A stretch of DNA of 64,000 bases, from assembly GCF_000425865.1 (NCBI RefSeq), contig NZ_AUEG01000010.1:1-64000 (forward strand), in the 5' to 3' direction. Positions 51,188-59,493 of this stretch are shown in pieces. Under the pieces are notes generated by a model. It had not been told where the DNA came from. It did no database searches and saw nothing but the letters and a program-made list of their open reading frames with translations. The stretch comes from Lacticigenium naphthae DSM 19658. Lineage in GTDB: Bacteria; Bacillota; Bacilli; Lactobacillales; Carnobacteriaceae_A. The position numbers were made by a program, and so were the translations under genes. Position 1 is the stretch's first letter, and each line of letters opens with the position of its first letter.

Positions 51188-52483
51188 ATGGAGTTTAACA
51201 ATCCGTTGCATTTCACACAAACTCAAACCCAAAAGCAATCCTATGTACCTAATTTAGTACAAGGAGTGCAGCTATTACAATTTAATAGATTGGAGTTATC
51301 ATCTTACTTAAATCAAACGATCCTAGATAACCCTTTCATAAAAATACCTGAAGAAGAAAACCAACTTATCAACAATTCACTCAGCGAAACGACTAACATC
51401 ATTGAACAAACTGCTTCGTACCAACAGTCGATTTATGATTTTTTAATGGAACAAGCTTTTTTATTTTATCGAAAAGGCGAATTACGTAATTTAGTTTTTT
51501 GGTGGATAAATAACTTGGATGATAAAGGCTTCGTGACCGCATCAATGGAAGAAGCTCAACAAATTACTCAAGCTTTACAGACTCAATTGTTGGATTCCCT
51601 AACGTTGCTTCACCAATTAGACCCACCTGGAATAGGCGCTCGAAACATTCAAGAATGTCTAATGTTACAGACTGAACGCCTTGAATTTTCACCGCCTATT
51701 GCCTATTTGATTTTGGAAGAACATTTTGATGATCTATTTCACAAACGGTGGAGTCTGATTGCAGAAGATTATCGCATCTCTTTAGAACAAGTAGAAGAAG
51801 TGTACCAGTTCGTTCAGCGCTTATCTCTTTCTCCGATTGAAATGTATAATGCCCGCTCTGAAACAGTTCCTTTCATCATTCCCGAATTAGTCGTCTCCTT
51901 ATCTGATGGCAATTTGACTATCGAAGAAACGCGTTACAAAACACCTTTATTATCCTTTGATCTGAACTACTTTAACGAGATGAAAACCATTGAAGACAGT
52001 GAAGTATCTAGCTTCTTAAAAGAAAAACGCCAAGAATTCGAGCAGTTACAAACCAGTCTTAAACGTCGGGGAGAAACGATTCTTCAAGTGGGAACAGCTA
52101 TCGTTCTGCATCAACAGAACTTCTTTTCCCAAAAAGAACGATCGCTCGTCCCATTACAATTAACTGATCTGGCTCAAATCTGTAAACTGGATGTTTCGAC
52201 GATCAGTCGGGCGGTTCGAGAAACTTATATCCAAACACCTCAAGGGGTGTTTGAGTTAAAATCATTTCTATCCCGAAGAACGCCAAATGGTGACCAATCC
52301 AAAGATACAATCACGCGACTGATTCAAGAGTGGATCCGCACTGAAGACAAACAACGTCCGCTTTCAGATCAAAAGTTGGTTGAGCTACTCAGCGAGAAGG
52401 AAATCAAACTTTCCAGACGGGCAATTACAAAATACCGTAAACAATTGAACATCGCTTCCTCTGTTAAAAGAAAAATCAAATAA
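51188..52483 (+). CDS. rpoN: RNA polymerase sigma-54 factor
   Basis: Sigma-54 directs polymerase to -24/-12 promoters and needs an AAA+ activator. The 431 residues comprise the Gln/Leu-rich region I (QSYVPNLVQGVQLLQFNRLE, about 18-37), core-binding region, the helix-turn-helix LDVSTISRAVRE (about 337-348) and the RpoN box variant SRRAITKYRKQL (about 411-422; canonical ARRTVAKYREML), which reads the -24 element. The only sigma-54 promoter found in the window drives the convergent PTS operon next door. The ATG follows GAAAGGAAGATTTAT. Confidence 0.96.
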   Translation: MEFNNPLHFTQTQTQKQSYVPNLVQGVQLLQFNRLELSSYLNQTILDNPFIKIPEEENQLINNSLSETTNIIEQTASYQQSIYDFLMEQAFLFYRKGELRNLVFWWINNLDDKGFVTASMEEAQQITQALQTQLLDSLTLLHQLDPPGIGARNIQECLMLQTERLEFSPPIAYLILEEHFDDLFHKRWSLIAEDYRISLEQVEEVYQFVQRLSLSPIEMYNARSETVPFIIPELVVSLSDGNLTIEETRYKTPLLSFDLNYFNEMKTIEDSEVSSFLKEKRQEFEQLQTSLKRRGETILQVGTAIVLHQQNFFSQKERSLVPLQLTDLAQICKLDVSTISRAVRETYIQTPQGVFELKSFLSRRTPNGDQSKDTITRLIQEWIRTEDKQRPLSDQKLVELLSEKEIKLSRRAITKYRKQLNIASSVKRKIK

Positions 52484-52529: not shown

Positions 52530-53471
52530 TTATCCAAAGATACCTAAAACATAACCAAGAATACCGATAACAAATAATCCGAAGATAATTGTGATAGGGC
52601 TAACTTTTTTACGTAATAACCATACACAGCCTAATGTTAGGAGTAATGGAGCAAGACCAGGAAGTAATTGATCTAAAGTATTTTGTAGAGTTGTAACTTG
52701 TTCTGGTTCGATACTCATTCCAGATTGGATTTGAGCAACAACACCACGTAGCATGTCTCCTGAGATCACACCTTCGTTAGCTGCTTCAGCGATACCACTA
52801 AAGTCGACCATCTCTTCAGCCGGGACATCCATACGACTTAATACCATTGGGAAATGCATACTGGTCCATCTTGGAACAAGTACCCCCATGATAAACATAC
52901 CTAAAACAGATGCTCCTTGAGTCAATTTCTGCATCAACCCACCGGATAAGTTTTTAGTGATATTTCCTCCTTGAACATATCCAAGCTCTTGTGTATACCA
53001 TAAGAAAGCCATACGGATAATATTCCAAACGAAGAAGAAGATGATGGGGCCTAACCAGCTTTCACTCAAAGCGAGCGAAGCAGCAAAAGCACCCAATACT
53101 GGACGAAGCGTTCCCCAGAAAACGGGATCACCTACACCAGCCAAAGGTCCCATCATACCGATTTTTACTCCTTGAATTGCTGCGTCATCAATATCTTTTC
53201 CGGCAGCTCTCTCTTCTTCAAGTGTCAATGTCACCCCGAAAACAGGTGAGGCTAAATATGGATGAGTATTGAAGAATTCTAAATGTCTTTTCAATGCTGC
53301 GGCACGATCTTCTTCAGTTGTATATAATTTTTTCAAAGCTGGAATCATTGCATAAGCCCAACCTACATTTTGCATACGTTCAAAGTTCCATGATGCTTGG
53401 AGGAATTGACTTCTCCAAAAAACGTTAAAACGATCACGTTTAGTTAATTTATAATTATTATTTTCAGCCAT
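52530..53471 (-). CDS. PTS mannose-family transporter subunit IID
   Basis: IID is the second membrane component of the mannose-type PTS. The 313 residues start with a hydrophilic helix region (LTKRDRFNVFWRSQFLQASW and FERMQNVGWAYAMIPALKKL) followed by the conserved GPLAGVGDPVFWGTLRPVLG loop and several hydrophobic segments near the C-terminus. It pairs with IIC, encoded 20 nt upstream. Similarity to ManN/MptD types suggests glucose/mannose transport; this complex is also the receptor for class IIa bacteriocins in related species. Confidence 0.95.
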   Translation of the reverse strand: MAENNNYKLTKRDRFNVFWRSQFLQASWNFERMQNVGWAYAMIPALKKLYTTEEDRAAALKRHLEFFNTHPYLASPVFGVTLTLEEERAAGKDIDDAAIQGVKIGMMGPLAGVGDPVFWGTLRPVLGAFAASLALSESWLGPIIFFFVWNIIRMAFLWYTQELGYVQGGNITKNLSGGLMQKLTQGASVLGMFIMGVLVPRWTSMHFPMVLSRMDVPAEEMVDFSGIAEAANEGVISGDMLRGVVAQIQSGMSIEPEQVTTLQNTLDQLLPGLAPLLLTLGCVWLLRKKVSPITIIFGLFVIGILGYVLGIFG

Positions 53472-53491
53472 TATTCTTCATCGCTCCTTCA

Positions 53492-54289
53492 TTAATAGTC
53501 ATTTAAGATATCATTAAGTGGGTCTCCGCTGCCGGAGTTTCCGCCGCCACCGCCGCCTTGATTGAATTCAGGAGAAAATTGTAGGAAAAGTAATGCTAAT
53601 ACCACACCAATAATTCCCATTGCAATCAAGTTTAAATCTCCAACAGCTGATAAAGCGAAACCTAAAGCAAAGAATACCCATAATTTAGGAGTAGCCATCA
53701 TATTGATAACCATTGCATAACCAACAGCAACGATGAATCCACCAGCAACAGCTAAACCACCTGTTAACCATGCAGGAATCGAATTCAATGCATCTGTCAC
53801 AACGCCAGCTGGAACTGCTAAAATAATACCTGCGGGAATTGCAATACGCAATCCTTGTAACATCAAAGCACCGATATGGTACATTTCCACGCCTCTAAAT
53901 GAACCTTCTTTTGCTTTTCTGTCGGCACCGTGAGCGATCCCCACTGTAATTGTCCGTACAAACATAGTCAATACTTGTCCAGCAATTGCTAATGGAATAG
54001 CAAGTGCGATCCCTTCGGAAATGCTTGCGCCATTAATAGTAACTAAAATAGCTGATGCAATTGAAGCTAAAGCTGCATCGGGAGCAACTGCTGCTCCGAT
54101 ATTCATCCATCCTAGTGCGATCAATTGTAGTGTTCCGCCTAATAATAGCCCTTGCAAAGGATTTCCTGTTACGATCCCGATTAAAGAAGCGGCTATGATT
54201 GGTTGATGAAATTGAAATTCATCCAAGATTCCTTCCATACCTGCTAAGAAGGCTACTAGAAGAACTAAAATAACTGTAAAAATACTCAT
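53492..54289 (-). CDS. PTS mannose-family transporter subunit IIC
   Basis: IIC is the sugar-translocating membrane subunit. The 265 residues have about seven hydrophobic segments, the typical LLVAFLAGMEGILDEFQFHQ near the N-terminus and LLGGTLQLIALGWMNIGAAV. It ends in a Gly/Ser-rich tail (GGGGGGNSGSG), a feature of ManM-like IIC proteins. It lies between IIAB and IID, and all are in one operon. GAGGAGGGAATATAAATT precedes the ATG. Confidence 0.95.
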   Translation of the reverse strand: MSIFTVILVLLVAFLAGMEGILDEFQFHQPIIAASLIGIVTGNPLQGLLLGGTLQLIALGWMNIGAAVAPDAALASIASAILVTINGASISEGIALAIPLAIAGQVLTMFVRTITVGIAHGADRKAKEGSFRGVEMYHIGALMLQGLRIAIPAGIILAVPAGVVTDALNSIPAWLTGGLAVAGGFIVAVGYAMVINMMATPKLWVFFALGFALSAVGDLNLIAMGIIGVVLALLFLQFSPEFNQGGGGGGNSGSGDPLNDILNDY

Positions 54290-54319
54290 AATTTATATTC
54301 CCTCCTCAAAAAATTATAC

Positions 54320-55291
54320 TTAATTGACATACTCTGTTTTTTTCAATAAGTCCCACAAGTTTTTGCTTTGATCTGAAGGGACTTTACGAACGTCAAACTT
54401 CACACCCTGGTCTTTTAACTTTTTAAATGCGTCGACATCTGTTTTATTTACAGACAATACGTTATTGATCATCACTTTTCCTTCAGAGTGAGCCATTGAT
54501 CCGATGTTCACTTCTGGCAATTCAACTCCACCCTCAACAACACGTAAAACGTCTGTTGGATTTTCAAATAACAATAAAGCTTTTGTTTTTCCAAAACGCG
54601 GGTCACTCCATATTTCGATCATCTTGTCGATCGGAATAACATTTGCTTTAACTCCGGGAGGTGCTGCTTGTGTGATCAACGATTTGCGCAATTCATCTTT
54701 TGCCACATCGTCAGATACAACAATGATCCGTGTTGGATTTACATCTTTTGACCACGCTGTTGCTACTTGACCATGCAATAAACGAGAATCCACACGCGCT
54801 AAGCCGATATCGATTTTACCATCTCCTACCACTGTTCCTTTAGGAAGTGGTTGACTTGGCTCTGTTTTAGCAACGGCTTCAGCTTCGGCCGGTTGCAAGC
54901 TTTCTGGTCTAACTTTCACACTATCTTTTGCTACTTCAAGAATGGTCGAAGCAATTTCATGCGCATTTTCACTTGAAAAACGTGCTGTCAATGATTCGAT
55001 CAACATGGGTAAGCTTAGTCCTGCTACGATTGCCCATGTATCTTTGTGCTCTTCAAACAATGTATTTGCCTGATTAAAAGGAGTCCCACCCCATAAATCT
55101 ACTAAGATGAGTATTTCATCTGTATTGAAAGATGCAATAGCACTTTCCATCTTGTTGCGGATATCGTCTGGTCCTTCACTTGGTTTTAATGTTACAGCTT
55201 TAATATTTTCTTGTTCGCCCACAATCATTGTTGCTGATTGTAAGATCCCTTCAGCAAACTCACCATGGCTTGCTAAAATAATTCCTACCAT
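54320..55291 (-). CDS. PTS mannose-family transporter subunit IIAB
   Basis: The 323-residue fusion has IIA (about 1-130) with phospho-His9 in LASHGEFAEG, a Pro/Ala/Glu-rich linker (about 130-160), and IIB (about 160-323) with the phospho-His in RVDSRLLHGQVATAW. Phosphate passes from HPr to IIA, then IIB, then the sugar. It follows a free IIB gene by 42 nt. This layout matches ManL/MptA of Listeria and enterococci, whose IIB also phosphorylates the LevR-type activator. Confidence 0.96.
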   Translation of the reverse strand: MVGIILASHGEFAEGILQSATMIVGEQENIKAVTLKPSEGPDDIRNKMESAIASFNTDEILILVDLWGGTPFNQANTLFEEHKDTWAIVAGLSLPMLIESLTARFSSENAHEIASTILEVAKDSVKVRPESLQPAEAEAVAKTEPSQPLPKGTVVGDGKIDIGLARVDSRLLHGQVATAWSKDVNPTRIIVVSDDVAKDELRKSLITQAAPPGVKANVIPIDKMIEIWSDPRFGKTKALLLFENPTDVLRVVEGGVELPEVNIGSMAHSEGKVMINNVLSVNKTDVDAFKKLKDQGVKFDVRKVPSDQSKNLWDLLKKTEYVN

Positions 55292-55333: not shown

Positions 55334-55825
55334 TTAAAGAAAATTGCCTTTTTTTAGTACATCCATCAACGATTGTTTTCGATCACTCGGAACTTTCCTT
55401 ATTTCTAATTCAATTCCTTCAGAATCTAGATATTGAAAGGCATCTATATCCTCCTGATCAACAGACACAAAATGTGTGATCATTTTTTTTCCTTCAGTAA
55501 ATTTCATCCCACCAATATTGATTTGTTTAAAATAAATTCCACTTTTATAGATGTGTGCTACATCCATCGGATTTGTAAATAAGAGCAAAGCTTTCACATT
55601 TATTAGTTGGGGATGATCAATCACTTGGATCAATTTATTTATCGTCACAACATGTGCTTTTATTTCAGGTGGGGCTGCTTGTATCAATAATAATTTCTGA
55701 ATGGGGTTTTCTGCCACTTCATTACTTACGACAATGATCCGGTTTATTCCCAGTGTCTTTGCCCAAGTTGTAGCAACCTGCCCATGTATCAAACGATCGT
55801 CGATTCGTATTAAACGGATGTCCAT
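55334..55825 (-). CDS. Free-standing PTS mannose-family subunit IIB
   Basis: The 163 residues are a complete IIB domain with the phospho-His in RIDDRLIHGQVATTWAK (about residues 7-23) and the late LLLFTNPMDVAHIYKSGI segment. The frame reaches 55873, but AAGGAGGACTTTGGAT fits the ATG at 55825. It is about as different from the IIB half of the downstream IIAB as subfamilies are. It is the first gene after the sigma-54 promoter, so the operon makes two IIBs. A regulatory role in signalling to LevR is inference; simple redundancy is the alternative. Confidence 0.92.
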   Translation of the reverse strand: MDIRLIRIDDRLIHGQVATTWAKTLGINRIIVVSNEVAENPIQKLLLIQAAPPEIKAHVVTINKLIQVIDHPQLINVKALLLFTNPMDVAHIYKSGIYFKQINIGGMKFTEGKKMITHFVSVDQEDIDAFQYLDSEGIELEIRKVPSDRKQSLMDVLKKGNFL

Positions 55826-55970: not shown

Positions 55971-56017
55971 CAACACACTAAAAAGATACACTAAAACACA
56001 GTGTCTTTAGTGTATCT
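55971..56017 (-). terminator. levR terminator overlapping candidate activator sites
   Basis: A perfect 12-bp stem AGATACACTAAA / TTTAGTGTATCT (55984-56017) with a U-run terminates levR 8 nt past its stop. Next to it, CAACACACTA (55971-55980) repeats the motif seen in the dyad upstream of levR. The distance of about 45-90 nt from the -24 element is suitable for enhancer sites of the LevR activator. Confidence 0.7.
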
Positions 56018-56024
56018 TTTTTGT

Positions 56025-58883
56025 TTATTCTTCTAACAGTGTATCGATATCTTCCACAGTTCCTTGTTTTTTCCGAATAAAATAATCAATATAACTGTAT
56101 TCTGCTGACGGGATGGTTATCGCTAAAGCCCGCTCAAATTTCTCGATGGCTTCTCTTACTTTCAGGGTCCAATCAGCTTCAGCCATTGATTCGCTTTGAG
56201 TTTCTTCAGACAAAGGATCGTGATGGACCAATCTTTCGATCACACCGGCCATATGGAGAGAAAGATTGATATGAAAAGCAAACCCCTTCTCAGGATGGGG
56301 TTGCAATGTGGCACACTCTTCAACAAATTCCCATAAAGGATTCAGTACTTTTTTTGGATTTAAAAATGTGTACTGTTTTTCTAAAAAGGAACGGACCAAT
56401 TCTTTCGCTTGCTGTCCATGAGTGATTCCCTCTTGCGGTGCAGGCATAGTCAATTGATTGATTTTATCCAATAAAATTTCTGCATCTTCTTCAATGAAAT
56501 TTTCTAAAGGGATAAATGGAGCAGTCAACTTAGGATTGATGACTCCAGTTGTCGCTACGATAGTGTACTTCCTTTGCCAGTTTTGAATATTTTCATTTAA
56601 ATCAGCTATCGAACTCGTTAACACTTTTAATGGATTGTTTTTCTGTTTTGCTAAAGGTTTTTCTATGATCTCCTTCAATTTTTGAGCCGTTCCTTCACCA
56701 CTGGCGCAAATCGCCACCATGATCGGTGTTTTATTCGTTTCTTCTGTAAGGAGTTCCCTTGGTTTTTTAACAACCGTGCTCCCATAGCCGTTGAACCGTG
56801 CCAAAGATTCATACAACATTTCTATATCTGCCTCCACCAAAGAAGCTTTTCGAGTGGCTTCCAATAACATAGCGGTAGAAACCATATCGATCGACCTCAC
56901 ATGAATTCCTGTTTCTTTGCGTAATTTCCCTTCAAAAGTAGCCAACGAACCCATGTCTACCAATAGGAAAACTCCACTTCCTTCATTGGCATCAATAACT
57001 GCTTGTTTCACACGATCATACACTACCGTTGGAGACATATCCAAGGGCATATCTACTGCTTTGATTCCAGAGGTGTCTAGTAATTCTTCTACCACTCGAG
57101 CCATACTACTCGCAGTCGAATTTCCGTGTGTAGCAATTACAACTCCGATCCTTCCCGTTATTTGTTCTACTTTTAATGAAACAAGAAGTACCGTTAAATA
57201 ATACACTTCACTTTGGGGCACAGCTACAGAAAACTCTTTGGAAATTTTTTCGGTCACAACCCTTGCGATCTCAAATTCCTTTGTATACGTAACGGCCATT
57301 TCTTTGATACGACTATTTAGTTGCCGAATTTCTCCTACGTGTATTTTGCTGAGCAGCGAACTAATGTGCAGACTGATTGCATAAATGAAATTGTGTTTAA
57401 ACAACGTTTCCAAAGCTGCTTCTATTTCCGGAGCTATTTCATGAACGAATTGGATGACTTCTTTCGAGACCACTTCACCTAATTTAGATTCTGTTTGTAA
57501 GGAGAATCCATGATTTCGATAAAACGATTTTAAGTGAACGTTAATGTCTGTTGAAATATATTGATTGATCGAATCGCGATCCAATCCCTCCGCTTCTAAT
57601 AAAGTTGCTTTATCCCCTATAATGTCATATAAATTGTATGGCAATTCGTACGCATCGATTTCCATACGATAAAAAGGTTCGTTGGGCTTAACCGTGATTT
57701 GTGCCTCCGCAACTTGCGATAAAGCTATACGATGACTGCCATTTGAGGAAAGTCCAACCAGATGCGTTTGGATAGTTTCCGGTAAGTCTCTTACAGTCAA
57801 ATAGATGCTTTCTTGATTAAGTTGGTTCATAAACCCTCTAGCACACACTAACTGTATACTTGATTTTAATTGTCCCACATTCCCATAGCCGACACTCGCA
57901 ATCAATGCCTTTATTACATCTTCGGAAAGTGTGATTTCCTTTTGTATTCTACTCGCTTCTAAACTTGTCAACAATTTAACTAAATCTAGTTGTTCATTCA
58001 CCGGACGTTCCTTAAAAGAAGGGAGCTGGATACTGATCGGGATCCTTCTCATAAAAGTATCAAGAAAAGTTGATTTGGGATCTTCTGTCGTTGCACAAAC
58101 GATGCGGACATTCGCTTCCCGGTTTTTACCAGTCTCCCCTAAACGACTATATAACCCTGAATCCATAAAATAAAATACCATTTCCTGTCCCTCAGGCGGC
58201 AACCGATGAATCTCATCGAGAAAGAGCATCCCATTATGTGCTCGTTGAATCAACCCTTCCTTAGAAGTCGTCGCTCCCGTAAAGGCCCCTTGCGAATACC
58301 CGAATAAATGGCTCATTAATAATTGTGGATTGTTCGCATAATCTGCACAGTTGAAAATAACGAGTTCCTTTTCATCTGCAATCAGCTGATTTGCTTGAGC
58401 AAAATGAAACATCGCGTGCGCAAAAAACGATTTCCCAGAACCTGTCGGCCCCGTGATCAACGTGTTCAACCCTTTAGGAGGATACAAAACTGCAGCCTTC
58501 GCTTGTTCAACAACATTGTGCATGCTCCCATTTGCACCGATCATCGAACGAAAAACATCTTTTTTGTCAGCGATAGAAAGGGATGCTGCGGCTATTTGAG
58601 AACTACTCGGTATCTTCTTCTCTTTATAACTAGGTACATATTTAGTTAAGGGCGCATGCGGTTTTGAAACGGATGCAAAATAACGCACAGGCCTCCCAAT
58701 CGTTTTATGTAGCAAGCCCTCTCTAACTAGCGAATTTAAATCTTTAGAAACATTGCTCCTTTGGATATCCAATGATTCTGATATTATTTTCGTGGTCAGA
58801 CCTTTTCCTAACTCAACATCTTCTTCTGAATATGCTTGTGTTTCCTTTAATACGTAGTGATAGATACTTTTCTTTCGATTCAC
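56025..58883 (-). CDS. levR: LevR/ManR-type sigma-54-dependent PTS-controlled activator
   Basis: The 952 residues comprise an N-terminal winged helix (about 1-75), an AAA+ domain with Walker A GPTGSGKS (about 144-151), the sigma-54-contacting GAFTGA loop (GYSQGAFTGAT, about 193-203) and Walker B LFLDEIHRLP, a first PRD, an EIIA-Man-like domain (GVVIATHGNSTAS, about 585), an EIIB-Gat-like domain (VAICASGEGTAQKL, about 733) and a second PRD. PTS phosphorylation at His residues tunes its activity. It starts with GTG at 58883 after GAAGGGGGAATGAAAA. It is followed by the PTS operon it should activate. Confidence 0.95.
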   Translation of the reverse strand: MNRKKSIYHYVLKETQAYSEEDVELGKGLTTKIISESLDIQRSNVSKDLNSLVREGLLHKTIGRPVRYFASVSKPHAPLTKYVPSYKEKKIPSSSQIAAASLSIADKKDVFRSMIGANGSMHNVVEQAKAAVLYPPKGLNTLITGPTGSGKSFFAHAMFHFAQANQLIADEKELVIFNCADYANNPQLLMSHLFGYSQGAFTGATTSKEGLIQRAHNGMLFLDEIHRLPPEGQEMVFYFMDSGLYSRLGETGKNREANVRIVCATTEDPKSTFLDTFMRRIPISIQLPSFKERPVNEQLDLVKLLTSLEASRIQKEITLSEDVIKALIASVGYGNVGQLKSSIQLVCARGFMNQLNQESIYLTVRDLPETIQTHLVGLSSNGSHRIALSQVAEAQITVKPNEPFYRMEIDAYELPYNLYDIIGDKATLLEAEGLDRDSINQYISTDINVHLKSFYRNHGFSLQTESKLGEVVSKEVIQFVHEIAPEIEAALETLFKHNFIYAISLHISSLLSKIHVGEIRQLNSRIKEMAVTYTKEFEIARVVTEKISKEFSVAVPQSEVYYLTVLLVSLKVEQITGRIGVVIATHGNSTASSMARVVEELLDTSGIKAVDMPLDMSPTVVYDRVKQAVIDANEGSGVFLLVDMGSLATFEGKLRKETGIHVRSIDMVSTAMLLEATRKASLVEADIEMLYESLARFNGYGSTVVKKPRELLTEETNKTPIMVAICASGEGTAQKLKEIIEKPLAKQKNNPLKVLTSSIADLNENIQNWQRKYTIVATTGVINPKLTAPFIPLENFIEEDAEILLDKINQLTMPAPQEGITHGQQAKELVRSFLEKQYTFLNPKKVLNPLWEFVEECATLQPHPEKGFAFHINLSLHMAGVIERLVHHDPLSEETQSESMAEADWTLKVREAIEKFERALAITIPSAEYSYIDYFIRKKQGTVEDIDTLLEE

Positions 58884-58935
58884 TTTTCATTCCCCCTTCT
58901 ATCACTGTTCACGTTTCTCTGTTTGCATACACTAT

Positions 58936-58964
58936 ATTATTATAAAAGACACACTAATACAACA
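58936..58964 (-). promoter_or_regulatory. Probable sigma-A promoter of levR
   Basis: TTGTAT (about 58987-58992 or 58956-58962 in the repeated motif) with TAATAT (58936-58941) at 17 nt from the inner copy gives a usable promoter. Its -35 lies inside the ACACACTA dyad, so a protein bound there would affect levR. Confidence 0.4.
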
Positions 58965-58993
58965 CACTAGAGAAAATTACTAGTGTGTTGTAT
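58949..58993. promoter_or_regulatory. 14-bp perfect dyad upstream of levR (candidate operator)
   Basis: ATACAACACACTAG (58957-58970) and CTAGTGTGTTGTAT (58980-58993) are perfect mirror arms with a 9-nt centre. Another ACACACTA lies directly beside them (58949-58956). The same octamer occurs at 55973-55980 before the sigma-54 promoter. It also lies 5 nt past the LURP-one stop but has no U-run on the minus strand. Confidence 0.6.
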
Positions 58994-58998
58994 CGTTT

Positions 58999-59493
58999 TT
59001 AATTGCCACTACTTGCTGCGGCACTTTCAGAAGCCATCACACAGTCAATTATTATCATGATTGCTAATGCGGGCAACTCATTTTTTTCATCCATGACCGC
59101 CAATTCATAATAGTCACTAAAAGAAAACCATTCTTTTCGGATGGTAGCGACCGCCTGCGAACCAGAGACGATTTCATAATCATGTGCTGTAAAGCTTCCT
59201 TCCACATACCAATCCAATTGTTCGATCCGATACTTCGGTTTAATAAAAGACAGTTCTTTCCTTACAGTTGCGATTTCTTTTCCCTCTTGATAAACATTGT
59301 ACGTAGGTAGCCAATTCATAAGTTTCTGCTCAATATAAATGAGTTCTTTTCCATTCATATCACAAAGCGACAATTTCTTGGCCCAAGAAAACAGTTTTCC
59401 TTCTACCTTATAAATATCCCTTTCTTGTTCATCTTTCACTCTAAATTCATCTTTCCAAGAAAAGACTTTTTGTTTGATATATAATTTTTTCAT
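58999..59493 (-). CDS. LURP-one-related family protein (YxjI-like)
   Basis: The 164 residues match the Tubby-like LURP-one fold: start MKKLYIKQKVFSWKDEFRVK, then repeated strand pairs such as YKVEGKLFSWAKKLSLCDMNG and ATVRKELSFIKPKYRI, and WYVEGSFTAHDYEI. The family is thought to bind membrane lipids or to be a scaffold; bacterial members have no fixed role. It ends in an Ala/Ser tail. It is a lone gene behind the rplL terminator, upstream of levR in the same direction. Confidence 0.9.
   Translation of the reverse strand: MKKLYIKQKVFSWKDEFRVKDEQERDIYKVEGKLFSWAKKLSLCDMNGKELIYIEQKLMNWLPTYNVYQEGKEIATVRKELSFIKPKYRIEQLDWYVEGSFTAHDYEIVSGSQAVATIRKEWFSFSDYYELAVMDEKNELPALAIMIIIDCVMASESAAASSGN

Follow-up and report, generated by a model that had tools for sequence, protein, structure and literature searches.

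Organization of the levR and mannose PTS locus

The window, defined here as the entire 64,000-nucleotide stretch of DNA analysed, carries on its minus strand, in this order, ribosomal protein genes (rplK, rplA, rplJ and rplL, identified from translation), a LURP-one-related (LOR) gene, levR, a sigma-54 promoter and the genes for PTS components EIIB, EIIAB, EIIC and EIID. The LOR gene (58999-59493) lies between rplL and levR. The levR/mptR gene (56025..58883, minus strand, GTG start) was assigned by Pfam and translation, and its product has the domain order N-terminal winged helix, AAA+, PRD, EIIA-man and a second PRD-like C-terminus. Pfam matches were obtained to Sigma54_activat (PF00158; 5.3e-41), PRD (3.6e-18) and EIIA-man (5e-12), and both a Walker A motif and GAFTGA (as GYSQGAFTGA) are present in the translation. 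The N-terminal HTH, whose recognition helix is RSNVSKDL, matched a TrmB-type winged helix only below the Pfam cut-off. With a GAFTGA-containing AAA+ domain, an N-terminal HTH and PRD/EIIA-man domains, the protein is a LevR-type sigma-54 enhancer-binding protein; it is an MptR/ManR orthologue, and its closest named relatives are from Alkalibacterium (64-65% identity; placed by NCBI in Carnobacteriaceae, Lactobacillales).

The -24/-12 promoter of the mannose-family PTS operon, TGGCACACTTCTTGC (55929-55915, minus strand), is the sole exact sigma-54 promoter match within the window and is conserved in family loci. The first operon gene encodes a stand-alone EIIB of the mannose/sorbose family (55334..55825, minus strand; PTSIIB_sorb 1.8e-51 and translation), for which the likely start is the ATG at 55825, the ORF list having TTG 55873 instead. 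The remaining genes (52530..55291, minus strand) encode EIIAB (54320-55291, by Pfam), EIIC (53492-54289) and EIID (52530-53471), the last two by gene order and translation. A convergent plus-strand gene adjoining the operon is rpoN, with a match to the sigma-54 DNA-binding domain at 52010-52474; sigma factor, activator and target operon are all clustered in the window. The order activator, stand-alone EIIB, other EII genes resembles that of mptR-mpt (mptR, mptBACD) of E. faecalis as given in the available text of PMC2941500, and the window operon and E. faecalis mpt have the -24/-12 promoter in common; mannose use in E. faecalis requires MptR and RpoN (available text of PMC8262876 and PMC2941500).

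Octamers upstream of levR and of the sigma-54 promoter

A perfect 14-nt inverted repeat, ATACAACACACTAG/CTAGTGTGTTGTAT, is present before levR at 58957-58970 and 58980-58993, where the initial annotation had placed a 14-bp dyad over the levR promoter region. This side holds more than the dyad, namely four octamers that are candidate LevR half-sites on the minus strand: an inverted ACACACTA in the upstream arm (58981..58988), TAGTGTGT in the downstream arm at the putative levR -35 position (58962..58969), a second TAGTGTGT 13 bp after it (58949..58956), and TAGTGTAT in the putative -10/start region (58927..58934). On the sigma-54 side, also on the minus strand, candidate half-sites were located at 56008..56015 (inverted, ATACACTA), 55986..55993 (TAGTGTAT) and 55973..55980 (TAGTGTGT, the downstream member of a direct pair), respectively 86, 64 and 51 bp before the -24 TGG. 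These distances of 51-86 bp agree with the earlier placement of an octamer and a TACACTAAA/TTTAGTGTA dyad 45-90 nt before the sigma-54 promoter. The accompanying claim that these elements lie within the levR terminator held for the TACACTA dyad, which is in the stem, but not for the exact ACACACTA, which lies just beyond the stem and its T-run.

A direct pair with 13-bp spacing is common to both regions (TAGTGTATCTTTTTAGTGTGT and TAGTGTGTTGTATTAGTGTGT), and of the three direct pairs of the form TAGTGTN4-9TAGTGT in the genome, two are these, both with that spacing. Five copies of ACACACTA occur in the window against 1.38 expected, a number reached in 0 of 100 shuffles; four are in the two intergenic regions and the fifth lies within levR at 57843. 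The eleven-base word ACAACACACTA has three copies in the 2.13-Mb genome, all in these two regions. Genome-wide searches returned two places outside this locus for the inverted pair and one for the direct pair, and nearby octamers were absent at the other sigma-54 consensus matches of the genome (L075-L077 and L079). Chance occurrence of the octamers was ruled out by the shuffle counts, the genome-wide counts and conservation in relatives.

Conservation, geometry and the LevR recognition helix

The initial annotation had proposed looking for the same words next to levR homologues, and TAGTGTRT precedes the sigma-54 promoter in 15/15 of the family loci where that promoter can be recognised (41 sites against a shuffle mean of 0.47) and precedes levR in 17/18 family loci (34 sites against 0.75); under one family locus with a half-site is expected on either side. 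Among 23 loci of other Lactobacillales, half-sites lie before the sigma-54 promoter in 20 and before levR in 17. An unbiased octamer count gave ACACACTA as the commonest octamer of the sigma-54 regions (15/15) and joint first at levR (14/18). A search of 396 Lactobacillales genomes with the promoter pattern TTGGCAY...TGC gave TAGTGTRT 40-70 bp before the sigma-54 promoter in 128, the reversed control pattern giving two matches in total; the strict direct-pair pattern overlooks relatives with other spacings. Although the relatives are not independent, shared ancestry alone is insufficient for this contrast because the surrounding intergenic sequence has diverged. Conservation across Lactobacillales thus supports the sites upstream of the PTS-operon promoter as a predicted LevR/MptR upstream activating sequence (UAS).

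A forward half-site lies at -62 to -65 from the -24 TGG in all 15 family loci, a second follows 12-14 bp further on (mostly at -50 to -52) in most, and an inverted partner lies approximately 11 or 22-23 bp upstream, that is, one or two helical turns. Half-sites keep their place to within 1-2 bp and a phase of about one or two turns, as expected when an oligomeric activator occupies phased sites. Many enterococcal loci have a symmetric array with 13-11-13 spacing, shifted upstream by approximately 8 bp relative to the family of the window.

For comparison of word and recognition helix, the set was enlarged by 60 regions that surround LevR-type activators of Lactobacillales, and the helix and sigma-54 promoter of each parsable system were compared together with the earlier loci; approximately twenty paralogue loci in which the search pattern gave no activator ORF were omitted from the association test. 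TAGTGTRT was present in 15/15 systems with an R.N.SKDL-type (MptR-type) helix, in 11/20 with an R.N.SRYL-type helix, mostly as TAGTGTGT (the exact word being absent in the other 9), and in 0/11 with other helices or an RpoN-like DNA-binding domain. Pooling the first two classes against the rest gave a Fisher p=1.3e-5, which is indicative only, as the classes were defined after inspection, the sequences are related and the 15 include the motif-defining loci. The SRYL-type activators tested are 31-33% identical to the window LevR overall, and their N-terminal winged helices align well with its own. TAGTGTRT thus tracks the LevR DNA-binding helix.

A word shared by two promoters alone would suit any regulator, and a protein other than LevR could be the one that binds the octamers at both. 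We regard this as quite unlikely, since the site positions fit an enhancer, a sigma-54 promoter needs an enhancer-binding protein, and the word recurs before sigma-54 promoters beside a number of different LevR-type genes whose products have the winged helix in common, but not beside LevR-type genes with another DNA-binding domain. From the computed presence, conservation, geometry and helix association we infer that the conserved octamer very probably marks predicted LevR binding, both at levR's own promoter and at the transporter promoter; the half-sites stand at fixed distances before sigma-54 promoters, in keeping with the LevR enhancer role first suggested for them.

The same genome holds a second LevR-type system, in which the DNA-binding domain is of another kind and TAGTGTRT is absent upstream of the sigma-54 promoter. 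The N-terminus of this activator (G000:C2:85.3-88.2 kb; L024:1045-3927, minus strand) is a Pfam Sigma54_DBD match (32.5 bits, above cut-off) and not a winged helix, and from this domain it may read DNA like RpoN. A sigma-54 promoter lies 11 bp past its ORF, and likewise in L023, L172 and L173. The LevR-type activator of L029 has the variant helix KRNTVS, and two TAGTGTCA words precede its promoter, which suggests covariation of helix and word.

Predicted terminator overlap, proposed autoregulation and known systems

A stem-loop and T-run just past the levR stop codon make up a predicted intrinsic terminator of levR (55980..56021, minus strand; 17-bp stem and T5), which overlaps the enhancer dyad. 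The stem (56021-55980) starts approximately 3 nt past the stop codon, its 5' and 3' arms contain ATACACTA (56008-56015) and TAGTGTAT (55986-55993), respectively, and it was the lone minus-strand terminator candidate in the scan; the same hairpin can be folded on the plus strand, where T6 follows. RNA folding of both dyads was better than that of every shuffle (0/200 as good for the terminator). Across Lactobacillales, the half-site dyad lies inside a terminator-like stem (at least 12 perfect pairs and a T tail of at least 5 T in 8) in 24/38 loci. Among the 19 dyads spaced by 11 bp, bases in the centre of the octamer are near-invariant and flanking positions vary in pairs, flank position 9 being paired in 18/19 (A-T 11, C-G 6) against 10.4 expected if independent. 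Constraint on sequence in the octamer and on pairing in the flanks is as expected of a combined operator and RNA hairpin, and fits the earlier suggestion of terminator and enhancer in one, with termination itself predicted from stem and tail. Relatives L010 and L012 keep the dyad with a weak T-run; the terminator role would thus not be universal and could be lost with the operator kept.

The good terminator on the sigma-54 side, and the fact that the levR-side dyad folds well and sits past the end of the upstream gene, would also suit dyads that are terminators or hairpins only, their shared word having no protein-binding role. A stem, however, requires pairing and not a fixed word, whereas here the octamers are near-invariant and the flanks change by paired substitutions; moreover, conservation at fixed positions extends to single octamers that lie in no stem, and, reading along the direction of transcription, no T-run follows the levR-side dyad. 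We consider a purely terminator role very improbable, and it is largely refuted by the conservation of the unpaired octamers.

No promoter for levR emerged from a strict sigma-70 scan; sequence inspection gave a putative -10 hexamer TATAAT (58939..58944, minus strand) with no recognisable -35. The four octamers span 58988 to 58927, over this hexamer (58944-58939); in relatives, half-sites recur around a TATACT hexamer, at positions -27 to -30 and -5 from it, and the one matching 58927..58934 shares bases with that -10. Occupancy of half-sites tiling the levR core promoter should exclude polymerase, and from this we infer the sign of control, leaning towards repression by LevR of its own synthesis. 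The autoregulation first proposed for levR is upheld to the extent that levR carries the operator word of its target, over its putative core promoter, in 17/18 family loci and 17/23 of the other Lactobacillales, as would an autoregulated activator gene. LevR could instead bind both regions and activate its own promoter, which would suit a perfect TATAAT lacking a -35, with a half-site in the -35 place; against this, half-sites tile from the -35 region to past the -10 and should block polymerase, and the scan of the window found no -24/-12 element before levR. Self-activation is accordingly the less favoured sign and, in our estimate, unlikely.

In the proposed mechanism, TAGTGTRT octamers would be half-sites for the LevR winged-helix domain, and the inverted pair and direct pair that lie 51-86 bp upstream of the -24 element would form the enhancer of the mannose-PTS operon, on which LevR would oligomerise and activate sigma-54 polymerase. 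The inverted pair would double as the stem of levR's intrinsic terminator, and the half-sites upstream of levR, with the same 13-bp direct spacing, would cover the putative core promoter and repress levR. Taken whole, with half-sites, enhancer, terminator overlap and autorepression together, we judge this reading likely. A further step, in which the terminator-enhancer is a real coupling device, such that dyad-bound LevR affects levR transcription or polymerase passing through levR displaces LevR from the PTS enhancer, appears doubtful; if true, it would tie activator supply to enhancer occupancy within a single 40-bp element whose conservation extends across Lactobacillales.

Many lactic acid bacteria, enterococci among them, use the mannose PTS as a main route of glucose entry, and in them it is also the receptor for class IIa bacteriocins. 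No binding word for its activator was found in the open literature searched, and the present analysis gives a candidate operator, TAGTGTRT with fixed geometry, tied to the recognition helix. It also suggests that one element can serve as the terminator of the activator gene and the enhancer of its target across much of Lactobacillales. The open literature (key subscription papers and RegPrecise lay outside the search) yielded no description of the word, of its geometry or of the overlap with the terminator, a text search for octamer words gave no relevant paper among the matches listed, and sigma-54 goes unmentioned in the available part of a published regulon reconstruction for Lactobacillales. 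SoxR of Bacillus thuringiensis is not known to be a PRD/PTS regulator. It is a sigma-54 enhancer-binding protein treated in a paper that takes up autoregulation (PMC4941409).

LevR-type activators, with their UAS and PTS control, are already known (PMC10864463, PMC6615313 and PMC8262876, available passages); within the known LevR/MptR/ManR and sigma-54 system the motif appears new, as judged from the open literature searched, and the arrangement unusual. The available E. faecalis accounts (PMC8262876, PMC2941500) give no MptR binding site, and the first terms the UAS of the sister system LpoR as yet unidentified; the Enterococcus loci examined here have GATACACT/AGTGTATC dyads before the promoter. 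Bacillus subtilis LevR, like the window LevR a LevR-type protein with PRD and EIIA-like domains, binds a UAS of the lev operon at -125 (cited in the available text of PMC10864463); this distance differs from that in the window, the two being compared by distance, and the passages on lev describe no overlap of the UAS with the activator's terminator. Bacillus thuringiensis CelR, likewise a LevR-type activator with several UAS copies, uses UAS1-3 before a sigma-54 promoter, as shown by mutation; it is likened to the window LevR by layout, and the available text of PMC10864463 describes neither terminator overlap nor autoregulation for it. Inverted copies of a sequence-specific word also form a terminator stem in paired DNA-uptake words (PMC1852404, available text); that word serves DNA uptake, whereas the word in the window would serve enhancer binding.

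Several Enterococcus-type loci lack a half-site before levR. Many of the Enterococcus loci (L034-L066) and Clostridium loci (L058-L062) have an extra half-site 11-20 bp upstream of the -24 element and nearly abutting the sigma-54 promoter; it is possibly a second, inhibitory LevR site. In relative L016, a long hairpin with a T-rich stretch after it has the half-sites upstream of levR at its base, and the operator there seems to be built into the terminator of the upstream gene.
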